DNA of 64,000 nucleotides, from assembly GCF_030758975.1 (NCBI RefSeq), contig NZ_CP132359.1:682001-746000 (forward strand), written 5' to 3'. The notes beneath the pieces are model-generated. The model was given only the letters and a program-made list of their open reading frames with translations. It did no database searches and was not told the DNA's origin. A program made the position numbers and the translations under genes. The DNA is from Bosea beijingensis (GTDB taxonomy: Bacteria; Pseudomonadota; Alphaproteobacteria; Rhizobiales; Beijerinckiaceae). Below, piece by piece: positions 54,142 through 64,000 of this stretch; position 1 is the first letter of the stretch; the number at the start of each line of letters is the position of its first letter.

Positions 54142-55580
<1,439 letters not shown>

Positions 55581-55780
55581 GACGAAGGCCTTCGATACTG
55601 GCGATTGATGTAGGCTTGGACATCCTCAGGGGTGAAGCGCGGCCCTACCGGGAACGCGTAGAAATCGATCGCTCCGGACTTTCGGGCGCGCCGAAGCTCG
55701 CCAGAGCGGAAAAAAGGCCATAGGGCCTCGACTTCCTGCTCGGTGAGGTATTTTTCCGGGGGGATCACATCGAGAACCAT

Positions 55781-56315
55781 CACGGCACACTGCCGCGCTG
55801 ATACCGATGAGGATCGTCAAACGAGGGGACGGTTTGCGGCACGAGTGATTCCACGGCTAAACCCCGCCCTAAGGCGCAGCGTCCGTGCCTCACTCGAATT
55901 CGCCCAGGCTGGCACATTTGCCTGGCACGGCGGGATCGCGGGTCTCAACGCGACGGCCCAGCGGGATCTGTTTACGCCGACCCCTAATTCGTTCCAACGA
56001 CGCGGCCGCTACGAACATGAGCCGTAATCGACCAAGACCTTCCGGATGTCGAATGCCGACGGCCTCCGGTTGCCGCCGGCGCTGCCGAACATCGTGGTCA
56101 CGCGGCAACAGCGCTGTTTCATCGGAAGGCGAAGGGGCGAGGTATCCCGGTGTGTGGAGAATCCCGCTGGCCGTCACCCGCGACCCGAATCGATCACGAT
56201 GCACAAAGAACATAGCATGAATTCCTATGAGATCGAAGCCACCGAGCTGCTCGAGGCTTTGTGAGGGCAAGCGGGACCTGCGCCGCTGCAAGCCTCGCTC
56301 TTGGCTGCGATGAGG
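55781..56315. other. Island intergenic region
   Basis: No convincing gene in these 535 bp. The plus strand at 56200-56264 has a short frame (MHKEHSMNSYEIEATELLEA plus L) that looks protein-like but lacks a clear ribosome binding site and may be a remnant. GC content is lower than in the core genome. Confidence 0.4.
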
Positions 56316-57041
56316 TCAGGTTCGTCCGGCCAGTTTCTGGCGCTCGCGACGTCGCATGACGAGCGTCGTCGCGAGCAGGGTGGCGAGGCCGCAGCCCGTC
56401 ATTGCCTCGCGCGAGACGGCCGCATCGCCAGCGATGTCGCAGGCCCGTCCGAGATATGTTTCGAAGAGTTGCTCCCGCAGGAGTGCGACTTCGCCGATGA
56501 AACCGTTGGAGTAGGGCTTGCAGGAATAGTCGCTCTGCAGCACCTCTCTGTGCCAGGCTGCAAGCGCCGAGAGCTGACGATCATCGATGCCATCGCGCAG
56601 GCTCTTCCCAGCCATGGGCACTTCGGCTCCGCCGATCAGATGAGTGTCAAGATCACAGCTGGCGACCCCTCCCGCTTCCGGCAGGAACGTGGCGAGAAGA
56701 TCCCGGAACACTGCGTTGTTCTGCAGCGGTCTTTTGACCAGCAGCGCCATCAGCAGGTCGCTCGCGATCAGCAGATCGGCAGCATTAGCAGCCTCGGCGA
56801 ATTCAGCAGTATCGCGCCGGCTTGGAAGCGCTTTGGTCGCTTCGCTGATTACCTTCATGCGCGCGTAGGCGTTAACGAGGAAGGCCTCGGAGTAGCCAGG
56901 CAAGCTATTGCTCTGAAAGAACGAATTGAATGCCTCGCGCTGGTCGGGCGAGCAGTCGAGAATGGCCGACATCGCGTCGGTAATCGGCGGCTTGCCCGGT
57001 GAGCTAACATGCCCGAAGGTGATGATAGTCATAGTCTTCAC
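56316..57041 (-). CDS. Unknown protein A2, paralogue of the 59206 gene
   Basis: The 241-residue protein is not recognised. Near the start it has FGHVSSPGKPPITDAMSAIL, closely matching FGHVSQPGEPVLTDALSAML of the 59206-59940 product. Further shared segments are AADLLIASDLLMALL / AAHLLIAADLVAALL, DGIDDRQLSALAAW / EGMTDSDLQQIARW and a late GF-or-GL ... LF ... GR segment, so the two are full-length paralogues. The shared motif lies 14 nt upstream in a shorter form (ACCCCCGAAAG). The start may be GTG 57041 or ATG 57032. Mostly helical; no membrane or signal segment. Confidence 0.8.
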   Translation of the reverse strand: MKTMTIITFGHVSSPGKPPITDAMSAILDCSPDQREAFNSFFQSNSLPGYSEAFLVNAYARMKVISEATKALPSRRDTAEFAEAANAADLLIASDLLMALLVKRPLQNNAVFRDLLATFLPEAGGVASCDLDTHLIGGAEVPMAGKSLRDGIDDRQLSALAAWHREVLQSDYSCKPYSNGFIGEVALLREQLFETYLGRACDIAGDAAVSREAMTGCGLATLLATTLVMRRRERQKLAGRT

Positions 57042-57411
57042 TTTCAGTATTTTGTCTTTCGGGGGTTATTCGGAATTACTTCCAAACAATCTTCTTTGTG
57101 CCTCGACTGACCTCGTGCATCCGTTTTGGCGTTCGAGAGCAGCGGAACGGACTTCGACGAAGATGCTGGTCTGTCGCGGCGGATTATTCCGGGCCGCTGA
57201 GCATGCTTGGCAGGCCGCGATGCCTTTATGGCATCGGATACACGGCGAAGCGTGTACGGCGAGATCTGGCATCCTAGGCCCAAGGGGCTTGCGCCGGTCC
57301 GGGCGCCGTGTGATCGGCACGTCGTGTTTTTGAGCATGTGCCTGGCGGATTGCAGCCGTTGACGACCGCAATCCGAGTTTCGAGTGCTCTCGAAGCATCC
57401 GAGCGGTGAGC
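57042..57411. other. Intergenic region upstream of A2
   Basis: These 370 bp include a minus-strand frame ending at 57044, two bases before the A2 start (97 codons from an ATG at 57336; ISPYTLRRVSDAIKASRPAK). It may be a small coupled gene or a chance frame. CTTTATGGCATC / GATGCCATAAAG and CACGGCGAAGCGTGT hairpins lie at 57220-57260. Confidence 0.4.
57056..57067 (-). promoter_or_regulatory. Shared leader motif before A2
   Basis: AACCCCCGAAAG on the minus strand, 14 nt before GTG 57041. It is the shortest version of the four-gene motif, lacking two bases. Confidence 0.6.
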
Positions 57412-58023
57412 TCAGATCGCGTTGCCGCCGCTGGACGTCTGCACGAGGCGGACACCTGGGAGGTTCAGTGCCATGATCGCTTGCTGGACCTCGGATCGGC
57501 TTCGACAGGCGACGTAGCACCCCGCCTCATTGCGGATGCCGATCTCGACGATGGCGCTCGTCGGGATGGTTTCGAACGACACGTACCAGGTCGAGGCTTT
57601 GATGAACCCGCCACCGGAGAGGATCAGGGCACGGCGCGTGTCCTTGTCGACTTTGGTCGTCGACCACTGAAGCCAGTTGAAGAGACCATGACTGTGCTCA
57701 GGGAGGTCGATTTGGATGCGAACCTGTCGCTTGTCAGCGAAGCGCGCTCCATTTGGCGGACGAACGCCGTCAGCCTCCTCGAAGAAGCGGCGCTGGCTCG
57801 CGGTGAGCAGCCCAGGCTCGCCAAGCCCGTGTTCAGCTGGATCGGAATCGGTGGTCAGGTTGACGCCGTTAGCGATCAGGTTCCGACCGTAGTACCTGCG
57901 CTTGTCGGGCTTCTTCATGTTCCCAACGAGGTTGGGACTGTCGATCACGACCTCCCCGCGATTGAGGCCGTACGTCATGATCGACTCGATGTGTTCGATC
58001 GCGGTGAAGTGATACAGTTCCAT
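57412..58023 (-). CDS. Unknown protein with ADP-ribosyltransferase-like N-terminus
   Basis: The 203-residue protein starts MELYHFTAIEHIESIMTYGL and continues to NGVNLTTDSDPAEHGL. A HFT motif, a GL turn and a following LTTD/LTxx strand are the first elements of ADP-ribosyltransferase-like folds such as DarT, KptA/Tpt1 and related toxins. Middle and C-terminal parts (RQVRIQIDLPEHSHGLFNWL..., WYVSFETIPTSAIVEIGI) are compatible but not diagnostic. The shared motif precedes it. Enzyme activity is a hypothesis. Confidence 0.7.
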   Translation of the reverse strand: MELYHFTAIEHIESIMTYGLNRGEVVIDSPNLVGNMKKPDKRRYYGRNLIANGVNLTTDSDPAEHGLGEPGLLTASQRRFFEEADGVRPPNGARFADKRQVRIQIDLPEHSHGLFNWLQWSTTKVDKDTRRALILSGGGFIKASTWYVSFETIPTSAIVEIGIRNEAGCYVACRSRSEVQQAIMALNLPGVRLVQTSSGGNAI

Positions 58024-58038
58024 GCGGCAAACTCTCTA

Positions 58039-58051
58039 CTTTCTCGGGGGT
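58039..58051 (-). promoter_or_regulatory. Shared leader motif before the ART-like gene
   Basis: ACCCCCGAGAAAG on the minus strand, 15 nt before ATG 58023. A GGGGAATTACCCC near-palindrome overlaps its upstream edge. Confidence 0.65.
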
Positions 58052-58090
58052 AATTCCCCTTTCGCTACGCCGCGGACTTCTCTCAGTGAA

Positions 58091-58120
58091 AAAGCCCCGC
58101 ACTCGGTGAGGCAGGGCTTC
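58091..58120 (-). terminator. Terminator after the 58198 gene
   Basis: On the minus strand AAGCCCTGC / GTGCGGGGCTT is followed by TTTTC, about 80 nt past the stop of the 58198-58995 gene. It implies that the next gene has its own promoter. Confidence 0.7.
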
Positions 58121-58197
58121 TCTGTTCGTTTTGGATCGAGATCGAGCGGGTAATAGAGCGGAGACCTCGCTGCGGGCCCTTGGCCCCTCGCAGAGCG

Positions 58198-58995
58198 TCA
58201 GAATGCCTCGCGATACCGCTTCGCGGCGTCGGCCATGCCCTCGCCTTCGAGCCAACGGAGGAGCACGTCCGATGGAGCAGGCTTTTGGCCGTAAGCATGG
58301 GCCAGCAAGGTTGAGCCGGGTCGATAGATTGTGACCGTCACGCCGCCGAACGGGCGTTGCTTAGGCCCGGGACTCTCGTGGTAGGGCGACAGGGCTCGTA
58401 AGATGACGAGCCGCACCATATCGCGCACGACGGTGTTGGCATGAGGGATCCAGATTTCATCCGACCCGGTGTTCACCAGCCAGGCACTGTCGACCTCGAT
58501 GAGCCTGTCATGACCGACGGGCGACAGCCACATCGCGAGGCTGACGGAATAATCCCTTTGCAGCGCCATGATGCAGTTGCGGTCGGTCATGGCGAGGCTC
58601 TGCATGATCTCGGTGACGCGAGCTGGGCCCAATCGCGCGTGCTGAGCCCTTGGATGATTTGCCGCGCCGGATGATGCGCGGGACGTGACCCGCCAACCAT
58701 TTGCAGATCGTCCGGGCAAAATCTCGCTTGTTGCCGCTCGCAACTTCGGAAGCACATCGGCGCGCGTCAGGCTTCGGGCCCGAAAGATGGCCTCGAGCAC
58801 ATCGTCGTATTTGGCCCGAGCCTGTTCAACCGCATCGAAAGGGGTCTTTGCCTTGTCGCTGTACTGGAACAGCGGATGGCCGTCGGCGGAGTAGAGGCGC
58901 ACGCTGTGCTGGCGCAGGCGATCAGCGACTTTCGGCTTTGCGGCCGCCGAGCCCAGGCTGTTGGGCGAAGTGATCTGGTGAATGGCGTTCGTCAT
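58198..58995 (-). CDS. Unknown protein B
   Basis: The 265-residue protein is not recognised. It begins MTNAIHQITSPNSLG and has a segment VRLYSADGHPLFQYSDKAKTP, a basic Ser/Arg-rich middle (GWRVTSRASSGAANHPRAQH) and a C-terminal part DMVRLVILRALSPYHESPGP. It looks cytosolic with mixed alpha/beta content. GAGGGACCAGAC precedes ATG 58995, and the shared leader motif lies just upstream. A terminator follows. Confidence 0.8.
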   Translation of the reverse strand: MTNAIHQITSPNSLGSAAAKPKVADRLRQHSVRLYSADGHPLFQYSDKAKTPFDAVEQARAKYDDVLEAIFRARSLTRADVLPKLRAATSEILPGRSANGWRVTSRASSGAANHPRAQHARLGPARVTEIMQSLAMTDRNCIMALQRDYSVSLAMWLSPVGHDRLIEVDSAWLVNTGSDEIWIPHANTVVRDMVRLVILRALSPYHESPGPKQRPFGGVTVTIYRPGSTLLAHAYGQKPAPSDVLLRWLEGEGMADAAKRYREAF

Positions 58996-59009
58996 GTCTG
59001 GTCCCTCTT

Positions 59010-59022
59010 CTTTCTCGGGGGT
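59010..59022 (-). promoter_or_regulatory. Shared leader motif before gene B
   Basis: ACCCCCGAGAAAG on the minus strand, 14 nt before ATG 58995, identical over 13 bases to the copy at 58039. Confidence 0.65.
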
Positions 59023-59205
59023 GCTTTCTGCCTTCCCTCGAAATCACCGATTTCTCGTCTGGTCCGCCGAAGGCGTTCTGGCTCGCAGCGGTCATCGAGC
59101 CACCCTGCGGTTTGTCGAGGACGCGCATTGCGACCTCGACAATGGCAGGTCACCGTCAAGGCGAGGCCACAAGGCAGGCCCGGTGATGCCGCCCGCCTGG
59201 AAGCT

Positions 59206-59940
59206 TCAATCCTCGCAGGGCATGAGGATGCCGCGAGGGTCGGGTTCGCGGTCGGCGAGTTCCACGGAGAACGCAACCGCGATGACGCAGGCGTGGCGGG
59301 CCCGGACGCCGAGCCCGGTTTCGGGCAGTTTGAATTCGCGGCCGTCGACATTGCTGAACAGCGCATCGTGAACGATGGCGATGTCGCTGAAGAGACCGAT
59401 GACGTGGTCACGGGCGGGAGCGGAAGTGCGACGCGCCCGCGACCACCGTGCGATCTGTTGAAGATCGCTGTCGGTCATGCCCTCGGCGAGATCATGAAGG
59501 CCCAGCGCTTTGGCCCTGTCAGCTGCGATATGCAGATCGACGGAGCCGGCGCGCTCCCGCACATCGGGCAGGACCAACCCGATGGCGTCTTTGACTCGTG
59601 CGAACGTTTCTTTGCTGTCATCTGCAAGGAGCGCGGCGACGAGGTCTGCGGCGATCAGAAGGTGCGCAGCCTGGCAGGCATCCCGGTCACAGGCGGCGAG
59701 CGGCTGCATATGACGTTCGGCGAAGTAGGTGCGCAGCACGAAGATGCGCAGGATCGCGCGAGCGATCAGGCCCTCGGCGACTTCGGCGCCGCGTTGACGC
59801 AGGCCATAGTGCCATTGGTCGAGGTAGTTCGCGGGCGCATCAGCGAGCATAGCGCTGAGCGCGTCGGTGAGCACCGGTTCCCCCGGCTGCGAGACATGCC
59901 CGAAGCAGGCGCGAGGGGCGAGGCGAGCGGCGTTCGTCAT
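59206..59940 (-). CDS. Unknown protein A1, paralogue of the 56316 gene
   Basis: The 244-residue protein has the FGHVSQPGEPVLTDALSAML N-terminal motif shared with A2, and the helical segments AAHLLIAADLVAALL and EGMTDSDLQQIARW. No catalytic motif, signal peptide or membrane helix is visible. It is the first gene of the leftward cluster. AAAGGAAAATCAAG and the shared motif precede ATG 59940. Confidence 0.8.
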   Translation of the reverse strand: MTNAARLAPRACFGHVSQPGEPVLTDALSAMLADAPANYLDQWHYGLRQRGAEVAEGLIARAILRIFVLRTYFAERHMQPLAACDRDACQAAHLLIAADLVAALLADDSKETFARVKDAIGLVLPDVRERAGSVDLHIAADRAKALGLHDLAEGMTDSDLQQIARWSRARRTSAPARDHVIGLFSDIAIVHDALFSNVDGREFKLPETGLGVRARHACVIAVAFSVELADREPDPRGILMPCED

Positions 59941-59950
59941 CTTGATTTTC

Positions 59951-59963
59951 CTTTCTCAGGGGT
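59951..59963 (-). promoter_or_regulatory. Shared leader motif before A1
   Basis: ACCCCTGAGAAAG on the minus strand, 10 nt before ATG 59940; differs from the other copies at one base. Confidence 0.6.
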
Positions 59964-60154
59964 TTTGGGATCTCAGTCCCAAAGGGACCTCCTTTTTCGG
60001 AATTGCCTCTTCTCGTGGGCGCCGATCGTTCAGATGGTCGCCGTTCCTTGCCGCGGGCGTTGAGCCCGCCAGCCAACGGCTTTGCCGGAGGCCCCGGCAC
60101 CGAGAGGTGACGGCGAAAAATTTTTTTGGCCTGTCCGCTTCGTGCGGCGTCGTC

Positions 60155-60182
60155 TGTTGTTTTGATAGTTCTATGCACCAAC
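60155..60182. repeat. 28-bp direct repeat, copy 1
   Basis: It shares AGTTCTATGCACCAAC exactly and 26 of 28 bases overall with 60337-60364. Confidence 0.85.
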
Positions 60183-60336
60183 GCTTCGCGGCCTCGCGAT
60201 GGTGCTCACGCAAGCGGCCGACGCGTGCAGCGCAGAGGGCTCTTGCGTGCCTCGCCCGGTACATTTCCTCAAGCCGCCCGAGCGACCCGAGGCGGCAACT
60301 CAAGGCCTCTCGTCAGACCTAGGATGCGCCTGCGGA

Positions 60337-60364
60337 TGTTGTTTAGACAGTTCTATGCACCAAC
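60337..60364. repeat. 28-bp direct repeat, copy 2
   Basis: Second copy, 182 bp to the right of the first in the same orientation. Confidence 0.85.
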
Positions 60365-60533
60365 AGGTGGCGTGGCCAACGCGCCCGTTCTCAATGGCTT
60401 ATCAACCATGGTCAAAAGCCCCCTCGAGAATTGGGCACCCACCTGCCTCATCCCTCAAATTGTCTGCAATCTATTTGGGGGCCGCTATCGGCATCGCCAG
60501 TTGAATGACCGCGATGAAGTCGGGGGATTTTGC

Positions 60534-61062
60534 GTGGCGGTTTCAGACAACGCGGCGTTCGTCGCATCCTATTACTATCAGGAAGCAGGCCTCGCAGCGC
60601 GCGACGATCTGGCAAATGGAGTCTGGTACGCGCCAGATATCCGCATGAAGGTGCCCAACGGCACGCCCGTCTCTGAGGCTGACCTCAGAGAGGTACTCAA
60701 GCGTCGCTTGCCCTGGACTAACGAAACCGGGCCGGCCAAACGCGAGAGCAAGCAAAAGACGCCCACGAAGAAAGGCAGTGCCTCGATCGAAACCACGTCC
60801 GCAAGAGACATCAGCTTCTCGGTGCCGAAGTCCGTCTCCCTCGTCTGGGCGCTGGGCACGCCGGATATCCGGATGAAGATCGAGGAAGCTCAGCATCGCG
60901 CCGTGAAACGCGCCATGGACCTGTTCTTCCAGAATGTCGCTCTTGAGCGCATTGGCAATTCGAAGGAACAGAAGACGCGGCCTGCAATCGCGTTCTGCGC
61001 GCTCTTTCTGCACGGAACCTCGCGCAATGCAAAGCGTGATGACGGCAAGCTCCATCCCGATC
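60534..61062 (+). pseudogene. TrwC/TraI-type relaxase, truncated
   Basis: The remnant encodes ~176 residues of an HUH relaxase (MobF family). It has the N-terminal catalytic tyrosines (VASYYYQEAG, residues ~10-19), the diagnostic ARDISFSVPKSVSLVWAL segment and the start of motif III (FLHGTSRN ... KLHPDP). The reading frame then passes directly into IS66 TnpB, so the last histidine(s) of the metal site and all downstream helicase parts are lost. GTG 60534 with GGGGA upstream is the likely start; an ATG at 60408 is possible. The island is therefore no longer self-mobilising through this gene. Confidence 0.85.
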
Positions 61063-61082
61063 CGTGCGGTGCGGGCCTCGCG

Positions 61083-61436
61083 ATGATTGTGCCAGGCGTC
61101 GATCTGAAGATCTACATGGCGACGCGCCCTGTCGACTTCCGTCGCGGCCTCGACGGGCTTGCCGCGACGGCGCAGGAGGTCCTCGGCCTTGATCCTTATA
61201 GTGGTGCGGCCGTCGTCTTCCGCGCCAAAAGGGCTGACCGGATCAAGATATTGGTCTGGGATCGCACCGGGCTGGTGCTGGTGCACAAGCGGCTGGAGGG
61301 TTCGAAGTTCGTGTGGCCGCAGGTTCGCGATGGCGTGATGCGGATGTCGCCGGCGATGTTTGCGGCGCTGTTTGAGGGACTGGATTGGCGCCTGATGCGT
61401 CCCGAACGGGCCCGGCGTCCGCAGCTTGCCGGGTGA
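61083..61436 (+). CDS. tnpB: IS66 accessory protein TnpB
   Basis: The 117-residue protein has VDLKIYMATRPVDFRRGLDG, DPYSGAAVVFRAKRADRIKI and KRLEGSKFVWP, the IS66 OrfB (TnpB) signatures. ATG 61083 overlaps the stop of the residual tnpA-like frame (ATGA), the usual IS66 coupling. It is in frame with the upstream relaxase remnant, giving a single 436-codon open frame that is an artefact of the junction. Confidence 0.92.
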   Translation: MIVPGVDLKIYMATRPVDFRRGLDGLAATAQEVLGLDPYSGAAVVFRAKRADRIKILVWDRTGLVLVHKRLEGSKFVWPQVRDGVMRMSPAMFAALFEGLDWRLMRPERARRPQLAG

Positions 61437-61504
61437 GTGCGGCACACTGACTCAGGGGCGCGCCGCGCATGGCGCTGACGGTGGATCCGTGCTCGAAATA
61501 GCGC

Positions 61505-63070
61505 ATGAACGTCGCCGTTCTCCACGACGAGGTCGAGCGTCTGAAAGCCGAGCTGGCGCAGACGCAAGAGGCCCTGGCTCAGTCCGAGGAAGCACGGCGG
61601 CGGCTGGAGAGCATCGTCAGCGACTTCCAGCGCGAGAAGTTCGGCGCCAGGTCCGAGAAGCTCTCCTGCGATCAATACCATCTGCCGCTGGAGGACGTCG
61701 AAATCGCCCAGGGCGTGCTCGACGCCGCCCATGAGAAAGCGCAGCGGATCATCAAGGGCCGCCCGGACGGCGCCTGCGCTTCTCATCGGCGCAACCGCGG
61801 TCACCTGCCGGCCCATCTGCCGCGGGTGGAGCGGATCATCGAGCCTGAGAGCAGGCTGTGTCCGTGCGGCTGCGGCGAAATGGCCAGGATCGGCGAGGAC
61901 GTCAGCGAGCGGCTGGACGTGGTGCCGGCGCAGTTGCGCGTGCTGGTCACCCGCCGCCCGAAATACGCCTGCCGCCGCTGCTCGGGCGCGGTCGTGCAGG
62001 CCCATGCCCCCGAGCATGTGGTGCCGGGCGGCCTGCCCACCGAGGCGCTGATCGCCCAGGTCATCGTCGCCAAGTTCGGCGATCACCTGCCGTTCTACCG
62101 GCAGGCCGAGATCTATGCCCGCCAGGGCATCCGGCTCGATCGCGCGACACTGGGTAACTGGGCTGGCCGGGCCTGCTTCCATCTCAAGCCCATCGCCGAG
62201 CGCATGCGCCAACATCTGGCCGCGGCAGGTCGTCTGTTCATGGACGAGACCACCGCACCGGTGCTCGATCCTGGACGAGGGAAGGTCCGGAAGGGCTTCT
62301 TCTGGGCGATCGCTTCCGATGACCGCGGTCATGGCGGCCAGGGCCCGCCCATCGTGCTGTTCCACTATGCGCCGGGGCGCAGTGGCGAGCATGCGGAACG
62401 CTTCCTTCAGGGCTTCCGCGGGCAGTTCCTGCAAGTCGACGCCTATGAGGGGTACGATCGGCTGGCGCGCCTGGAACGGCCGCAGGGGCCCTGGAGGCTC
62501 GTCCATTGTTGGGCCCATCTGCGCCGACGGTTCGTCAAGCTGGCGCGCAACACCAAATCCCCGATCGCCGAGGCGGCGATACGCCAGATCGCGGCGCTCT
62601 ATGCCATCGAGGCGACAGTGCGCGGGGCAGCGCCGCAACTGCGGCTCGCCGCCCGGCGGGAGCATTCCGCGCCGATTATCGCCGCCCTCAAACCATGGCT
62701 CGAGAAGCAGCTGTCGCTGATCTCCTCCGGATCCAGACTGGCCGAAGACATCCGTTATGGGCTCGCTCACTGGGAGGGGCTCACCCGCTTCCTCGAAGAT
62801 GGCCGCCTCGAGCTCGACACCAACCCCGTCGAGAACGCCATCCGGCCAGTCTGCCTGACCCGAAAAAATGCTCTGTTCGCGGGCCATGAGGTCGGGGCCG
62901 AAAACTGGGCTTTGCTCTCATCCCTCGTCGCCACGTGCAGGCTCAACGACGTCAATCCCGTCGCCTATGTCGCAGAAACCCTCGACGCCATCATCAACGG
63001 CCACCCACAAAGCGCCGTCGAAGACCTCATGCCATGGCGCTTCCGGAAAACCTCAAGCCCAAATCCGTAG
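61505..63070 (+). CDS. tnpC: IS66 family transposase TnpC
   Basis: The 521-residue transposase has an N-terminal coiled coil (~5-40) and the GARSEKL segment. Zinc-binding cysteines follow (CPCGC at 119-123, CRRC at 156-159). The DDE catalytic residues are D247 (FMDETTAP), D312 (QVDAYEG) and E443 (NPVENAIRP). The C-terminal RKNALFAGHEVGAENWA is typical. Length is complete, so transposition functions may persist even though the left end is lost. Confidence 0.95.
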   Translation: MNVAVLHDEVERLKAELAQTQEALAQSEEARRRLESIVSDFQREKFGARSEKLSCDQYHLPLEDVEIAQGVLDAAHEKAQRIIKGRPDGACASHRRNRGHLPAHLPRVERIIEPESRLCPCGCGEMARIGEDVSERLDVVPAQLRVLVTRRPKYACRRCSGAVVQAHAPEHVVPGGLPTEALIAQVIVAKFGDHLPFYRQAEIYARQGIRLDRATLGNWAGRACFHLKPIAERMRQHLAAAGRLFMDETTAPVLDPGRGKVRKGFFWAIASDDRGHGGQGPPIVLFHYAPGRSGEHAERFLQGFRGQFLQVDAYEGYDRLARLERPQGPWRLVHCWAHLRRRFVKLARNTKSPIAEAAIRQIAALYAIEATVRGAAPQLRLAARREHSAPIIAALKPWLEKQLSLISSGSRLAEDIRYGLAHWEGLTRFLEDGRLELDTNPVENAIRPVCLTRKNALFAGHEVGAENWALLSSLVATCRLNDVNPVAYVAETLDAIINGHPQSAVEDLMPWRFRKTSSPNP

Positions 63071-63090
63071 GGCCGCGGCGGAGCGCTTAC
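63071..63090. repeat. IS66 right inverted repeat
   Basis: GGCCGCGGCGGAGCGCTTAC; its reverse begins GTAAGCG, the conserved IS66 terminus. Confidence 0.85.
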
Positions 63091-63457
63091 CAACAGCCGC
63101 GTAGGCCCGGGCGACATCGACCGGATCGTGAAGCGATGAGTAAGGCATCTCAAACCAAGTGGCCCCGCCGGCACCGGCCGACGGGGCAAATTAAGGGAGG
63201 AAACGCCGGATGGGGCAAGACCGAATCTGCCACTGCAGAGAGCGGCGCGACACCTACCCCTGGGTTTAATCGACCGAGACCTTCGCCAGAAAGCGCACGT
63301 GTCGCGTGGGCACATTGTGCCGGCAGCAGGGTGAATATTGGCCCGTTGCGGACTCGCGGAACGTCCGCTTTCAGGCACCTAACTTGCGAGAAGATGCTGC
63401 GGCCGAAACTTGCCCTCGGCTAACCTTCGAAAGGACCGCTTGTGTGCCGTAGCAACC
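63091..63457. other. Intergenic region between IS66 and helicase
   Basis: These 367 bp contain no convincing gene. A short plus-strand frame just inside (VGPGDIDRIVKR then stop) could be the end of a gene cut by the IS. CCCCGCCGG / CCGACGGGG forms a hairpin near 63163-63187. Confidence 0.4.
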
Positions 63458-64000
63458 TCAGATTCCCATCTCCGCTAGGAACCTCGACGGCAACTTGGTC
63501 CATCCCTTGTAGGACTTGGCGCGCGATAGCGTCAGCGTTTCCATGCAGCGGGTGATAGCGACGAAGCAGTTCCGTCGTTCTTCCTCAAGCTGCGGACTGT
63601 TGTCCCCCTGCTTTTTGCTCTGGAAGGATGGAAGTACGTCTTCTGCTAAGCCCAACAGATACACGTGGTCAAACTCGTTGCCCTTCGACCCGTGGATTGT
63701 CAGGAGCGGGATGACGCCAGCTTCTAGCGGCGGCTCCTTCGATCTCAGATCAAGTTCTTGGAGAAAGGCCTCGAGGGGCGCCGTGCGGCCGACCGCGCCG
63801 ATGATTTCCTTGTAGAGGTCCTTCCATGCCCGCGCATCCTCGTCGACCGACGGATGCTCTTCGAGCAACGTTGGCGCAGCCGCCGCAAGGGCCGCGTTCG
63901 CAGCCCTGAGGTACCTCTGAAAGTCCGAACGCTCTGCTAGGTCGGACCTCACTATAGGGATGATTTCAGCGCCGAACGGAGAGAGGGGCAGATCAGTGGT
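63458..64000 (-). CDS. UvrD/Rep-like superfamily 1 helicase, C-terminal part
   Basis: The frame is open to the right edge; 180 residues are visible. They include LLTIHGSKGNEFDHVYLLGL (motif V) and EEERRNCFVAITRCMETLTLSRA (motif VI), typical of UvrD/PcrA/Rep helicases. The tail ends WTKLPSRFLAEMGI without the long C-terminal extension of UvrD, as in shorter relatives such as the GajB subunit of Gabija. Family is secure; the specific role needs the missing upstream part and neighbour. Confidence 0.85.
   Translation of the reverse strand, partial: TTDLPLSPFGAEIIPIVRSDLAERSDFQRYLRAANAALAAAAPTLLEEHPSVDEDARAWKDLYKEIIGAVGRTAPLEAFLQELDLRSKEPPLEAGVIPLLTIHGSKGNEFDHVYLLGLAEDVLPSFQSKKQGDNSPQLEEERRNCFVAITRCMETLTLSRAKSYKGWTKLPSRFLAEMGI

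Follow-up and report, generated by a model that had tools for sequence, protein, structure and literature searches.

A start-adjacent motif that may control four genes of a Bosea mobile island together

Four genes (A to D) on the minus strand of the window, which is the whole 64-kb stretch of DNA that was analyzed (G000:C1:682001-746000, from a genome, G000, consisting of one contig of 5.56 Mb), all carry (4/4) an asymmetric repeated sequence just upstream of their starts, in a single orientation. The sequence is absent from control upstream regions, and other species of Bosea have its core ahead of relatives of two of the genes, A and B. It may be a conserved, uncharacterized signal that controls the four genes together. 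The best explanation, to which we assign a probability of roughly 0.4, is an RNA-level element acting at the start of translation on cargo genes that are separately placed.

Leader motif in the island and its frequency

Gene A (59206..59940, minus strand) codes for 244 amino acids predicted to be all-helical, and gene D (56316..57041, minus strand) is its paralogue, with 25% identity; both belong to a family (A/D/A') that includes a second copy of A found elsewhere in the genome. Gene B (58198..58995, minus strand; 265 amino acids) represents a second uncharacterized family (B/B'), while gene C (57412..58023, minus strand; 203 amino acids) has a relative in Agrobacterium Ti plasmids. All four were called as open reading frames (ORFs), and their being real genes is supported, at the level of sequence comparison, by protein homologues (A, D and A'; B and B'; C and the Ti-plasmid protein), to which a structure model is added for A. 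The gaps between the genes measure approximately 170 to 370 nt. As stated in the initial annotation, a terminator follows B, or at least a terminator-like hairpin and U run in the B-C gap (58090..58121, minus strand; −22 kcal/mol, z of −3.4 in folding against shuffles), and a tRNA-Val(gac) gene (54142..54216, plus strand) marks the left edge of the island. An integrase-like gene recognized by eye (54153..55580, minus strand) overlaps this tRNA; it matched NCBIfam XerA at an E value of 0.042 only and gave no integrase match in Pfam. Divergent from A is the N terminus of a TrwC/MobF relaxase (60126..61436, plus strand), whose gene is interrupted by an IS66 and reads into the Orf2 gene of the inserted element. 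The best explanation for this arrangement is a MobF-type mobile island of Bosea that carries A to D as cargo. The window also contains a sub-threshold match to the suhB/mmgR small RNA (63145-63223, minus strand), with 29.4 bits compared to a gathering score of 41.

The initial annotation had placed ACCCC(C/T)GAGAAAG, or a form two bases shorter, near the starts of A to D and had not noticed it in other parts of the window; this observation was confirmed. The four sites, all on the minus strand, are located at 59951..59963 for A (ACCCCTGAGAAAG, 10 nt from the ATG), 59010..59022 for B (ACCCCCGAGAAAG, 14 nt from the ATG), 58039..58051 for C (ACCCCCGAGAAAG, 15 nt from the ATG) and 57056..57066 for D, which has the shorter form ACCCCCGAAAG. 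The start of D is either the GTG at 57041, 14 nt from the motif and thus at the usual spacing, or the ATG at 57032, 23 nt away. Exact ACCCCYGAGAAAG occurs in the 64 kb at three sites only, at A, B and C and always on the minus strand. When up to three mismatches were allowed, the window had 27 sites versus 26.6 in shuffled sequences, so only exact or near-exact sites are meaningful. The motif is non-palindromic, always sense oriented and near the start codon, and it is set on unrelated families, A/D, B and C having no mutual homology detectable with phmmer.

The frequency of the motif over the 5.56-Mb genome is not the random one that would speak against a shared signal. Exact CCCCYGAGAAAG was found in the leaders of A, B and C and at only one further site, 8 nt ahead of the ATG of a 79-amino-acid ORF at genome position 5467139; a second A-B pair is located about 3 kb away. 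The five genomic sites of CCCCYGARAAAG comprise these four plus one (CCCCCGAAAAAG) inside a long ORF that resembles uvrC by eye. As a control, we drew random triples and quadruples from 67 upstream regions of the same genome, each taken at the first ATG of a long, GC3-rich frame. The leaders of A, B and C have a common 13-mer with at most one mismatch, compared to a maximum of 10, reached four times, in 3,000 random triples, and the 10-mer common to all four leaders was equaled by one of 1,500 random quadruples. Neither ACCCCY nor AGAAAG was present in any of the 67 control upstream regions.

The pattern ACCCCYGAGAAAGN{6,18}ATG was found in one of 149 genomes of the family, a sample that included six other Bosea genomes; this one was the genome under study, with three sites, and the reversed control hit two other genomes. 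Among 297 genomes of the order, five had the pattern (three sites in the same genome and a single place in each of four others, at least one of these four inside coding sequence by eye), versus one for the control. Within the genomes sampled, the long form is therefore essentially confined to the island of the window. In 239 kb of Bosea sequence, ACCCCYGA appeared nine times forward and never reversed at 8 to 26 nt ahead of an ATG or GTG, any such codon opening 60 or more codons being counted as a start; six of the nine were A, B, C, D and the A homologues of two other genomes (G741 and G762). Stretches of plasmids from Methylobacterium, Methylorubrum, Azospirillum and one Ti plasmid, 95 kb in all, gave no site in either direction.

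Protein families and their leaders in other Bosea species

Comparison of A to D with Pfam, NCBIfam and PHROGs provided nothing below an E value of 0.01. In PADLOC, no family matched A, C or D, and B had only a weak partial match to E2 (E value of 0.0037 over 68 residues). A, B and D thus have no convincing match in these four libraries, and the families A/D and B, which recur side by side, are missing from the libraries searched. The structure model of A is all-helical (pTM of 0.81, mean pLDDT of 76.9) and had no convincing match in the PDB. Relatives of A, B or D were absent by tblastn from 72,556 plasmid records. In the genus (67 genomes searched), relatives of A occur in G000, G741, G762 and G743, with a further, doubtful one in G732 (E value of 0.008), and relatives of B in G000, G341, G741, G762 and G765. 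With at most nine candidates per genome scored, the A profile over 297 order genomes and the two-row B profile over 289 class genomes recovered the genome of the window only. The B profile over 149 family genomes recovered two others, G341 and G370, the latter of another genus and weak (E value of 7e-4, with an internal stop). C is 27 to 30% identical to an uncharacterized Ti-plasmid protein found in 12 of the 72,556 plasmid records, all from Agrobacterium; of the 297 order genomes it was found only in the one studied here, alongside A, B and D. No Pfam family matched C at an E value of up to 10, its Ti homologue had weak unrelated Pfam matches only, and sequence searches of the PDB provided no convincing relative. 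The initial annotation had described C as ADP-ribosyltransferase-like, an assignment that Pfam, NCBIfam, PADLOC and these PDB searches do not appear to support. Its broader view of the locus survives in part, since a common non-random element on separate genes and the co-occurrence of their homologues were recovered, while the PADLOC results lend nothing to the suggestion of a defense or toxin module.

Four loci, representing three species, have A beside B: the window, a second pair A'-B' in the same genome near 5.47 Mb (locus L004; adjacent and in the same order), G741 and G762. B was not found in a 20-kb stretch around A of G743, nor A in an 18-kb stretch around B of G765. In both the window and G743, A is divergent from a gene of a TrwC-family relaxase (60% identical over 168 residues), so that the A family recurs beside a relaxase gene. 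Between the two genes, the window has two copies of GGTGCATANNACTRTC and G743 has one (L169:10431, minus strand); in the window this sequence is associated with a 40-nt repeat, of which copy 1 is at 60143..60182 and copy 2, 83% identical, at 60325..60364 (both minus strand). It was not detected in 15 other loci scanned (L001 repeats the window), and it could be a promoter, an operator or part of a transfer origin.

Several smaller observations were made at these loci. A' (L004:10074-10847) is a fusion whose first codons derive from an upstream gene with a weak BRO-N match (E value of 0.05), a separate gene in G741 (L167:8078-8491); the fusion apparently arose via a deletion that took out the leader. 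A GC-rich hairpin was predicted in the A-B spacers of L004, L167 and L168 (z of −0.08, −0.84 and −3.14), clearly better than shuffles at G762 only. In G341 (L024:13691-18790), the truncated B is downstream of a 1,699-amino-acid protein, a HerA-like ATPase by eye, and is cut short near an apparent insertion sequence.

Five leaders of relatives played no part in defining the motif, those of A in G741, G762 and G743, of B in G765 and of the truncated B in G341; A', B of L004, G741 and G762 (close behind A), the Ti homologue of C and the pair of small ORFs were kept outside this set. A relaxed core, ACCCCYRR, i.e., ACCCC(C/T)(A/G)(A/G), defined post hoc after the G743 and G765 leaders had been seen, is present in four of the five. 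It stands ahead of A in G741 (GACCCCTGATGAATAAGG), G762 (AACCCCTGATGAATGAGG) and G743 (ACACCCCCAGGAAAGG), at −25 from the chosen start in each, and ahead of B in G765 (AGACCCCTGGGAGAAC, at −18), which has no A neighbor; the truncated B of G341 is the miss. The strict ACCCCYGA is found in two of the five. G741 and G762 are closely related and hence do not count as independent. All starts are predicted, and for A of G741, A of G762 and B of G765 an in-frame ATG occurs at or before the motif and the next ATG was used; by eye, the chosen starts have a better Shine-Dalgarno sequence than the earlier ones. With the start allowed at the first, second or third ATG within 40 codons, for relatives and controls alike, the relaxed core was found in four of five family leaders versus none of 604 control ORFs (strict, two of five versus none), and with the first ATG only on both sides in one of five versus none of 602, the control ORFs being mechanical and many of them not real genes. 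An earlier control of 610 ORFs had no strict and one relaxed hit, which was A of G743 itself, and was not like for like, as chosen starts were used for the relatives and first ATGs for the controls.

The A homologues of G741, G762 and G743 are only 26 to 35% identical to A of the window at the protein level, a divergence at which a short non-coding sequence would be expected to be lost if it were not under selection. By eye, the leader sequence on either side of the core differs. The C-tract is better kept across species than GAGAAAG. The motif is absent from the leaders of A', of B closely behind A (L004, G741 and G762) and of the Ti-plasmid relative of C. Neither the small ORF at 5467139 (ACCCCCCGAGAAAGG) nor its G743 relative (ACCCCGGAGAAAGG) fits the relaxed pattern, but the former is a candidate fifth member of the set.

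Possible modes of action

Under the explanation that we prefer, ACCCC(C/T)G(A), on the sense strand and about 18 to 28 nt ahead of the start codon, would mark each separately placed gene, its C-tract continuing into purines that resemble a Shine-Dalgarno sequence (GAGAAAG in the long form). With the C-rich tract abutting the ribosome-binding stretch, the element would act in the mRNA at translation initiation, where a protein or small RNA encoded by the element or the host might block or help ribosome entry, and A to D would be adjusted together as one set. The sense orientation, the proximity to the start and the overlap with the purine stretch argue for translation initiation. On the other side, predicted folds of the four leaders were no better than shuffles (z of −0.87, 0.67, −1.05 and −0.85 for A to D), and no Rfam covariance model matched any of them in a search of 55500-64000 up to an E value of 5. 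No pair of inverted repeats of at least 14 nt was found within a leader, in a search that required exact 10-base seeds and that imperfect repeats could escape. The missing fold signal speaks for a bound factor rather than a self-contained switch. The lack of the motif at B genes closely behind A fits a role as a mark of genes that are expressed separately.

The main rival is an operator or promoter part near the promoter, bound by a regulator encoded in the island, with co-regulation at transcription, which we consider possible if somewhat doubtful. The gaps between the genes, together with the hairpin in the B-C gap, are suggestive of separate promoters, a B closely behind A could share the promoter of A, and two species have a further element, GGTGCATANNACTRTC, in the space separating A from the relaxase. 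However, the motif is non-palindromic, always sense and keeps near the start codon, and a scan limited to sigma-70-like promoters found none in 55800-61000 (0.7 in shuffles). Shared ancestry without regulation, in which the initiation stretch was copied with the duplication of A and D or by local exchange, would account for the paralogy of these two, for the 19-nt stretch, 84% identical, across the first codons of A and B and for the ATGACGAACGCC that they also share. It is unlikely in view of B and C, which have no detectable homology to A, of the core persisting at distant A homologues with dissimilar flanks and of its presence ahead of B in G765 with no A alongside.

That the leaders merely have a strong Shine-Dalgarno sequence, GAGAAAG(G) pairing with the 16S 3' tail next to an incidental C-tract, seems improbable. 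AGAAAGG does match AGAAAGGAGG, which we take to be the complement of the anti-Shine-Dalgarno sequence at that tail, and the spacing is compatible, but the C-tract is the better-kept half across species and AGAAAG, found in none of the 67 other upstream regions, is not the usual form here. Chance resemblance is highly improbable; a 12- to 13-mer can turn up once or twice per genome, as perhaps at the scattered places in four of the 296 other order genomes, but chance would not account for sites that cluster, agree in orientation and spacing and recur in other species.

Comparison with known systems

The divergent position of A and a TrwC-family relaxase gene in two genomes resembles MobF (TrwC) elements, although relatives of A, B and D are absent from the plasmid records searched and the relaxase of the window is broken by IS66. 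A Gabija system is next door in the same island (window 63458-64000 to L001:13767), with GajB at L001:9962-11920 and GajA at L001:11863-13767 (best PADLOC E values of 5e-240 and 6e-261), whereas A to D match no Gabija profile. Beyond the window, at L001:15755-18157 (69254-71656 in window coordinates), one ORF matches both an anti-phage phosphoesterase (E value of 7e-19) and a thymidylate synthase (E value of 5e-16), a possible fusion of the two, with both matches below curated cutoffs.

No prior description of the Bosea motif was found in the open-access literature searched. By analogy, the nearest described phenomenon is that of the Start-Associated Sequences (SAS/ESAS) of cluster K mycobacteriophages, short asymmetric repeats immediately upstream of starts, nearly always in one orientation and at genes of different families (PMC3203893). 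Their consensus is GGGATAGGAGCCC, about half of the sites have an extended form with 17-bp inverted repeats that are imperfect, and in that paper their role, binder and mechanism are not established (PMC3203893). Common to both systems are an asymmetric start-adjacent repeat, one orientation, several gene families and a mobile element. The Bosea consensus ACCCC(C/T)GAGAAAG differs from GGGATAGGAGCCC and by this measure is not an SAS; host and type of element are also different, the copies in Bosea are far fewer, and the 17-bp inverted repeats were not found in its leaders, where imperfect ones could escape the search. A bolder version of our preferred reading, which we regard as rather doubtful, is a start-leader code of a Bosea mobile-element family, in which a factor encoded by the element or the host would read ACCCC(C/T)GAGAAAG in the mRNA and switch the unrelated cargo genes A to D, and possibly the small gene at the second site, as a translational regulon parallel to the phage SAS. 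If true, this would provide a compact four-gene case in a bacterial island, tractable for finding what reads start-associated motifs.
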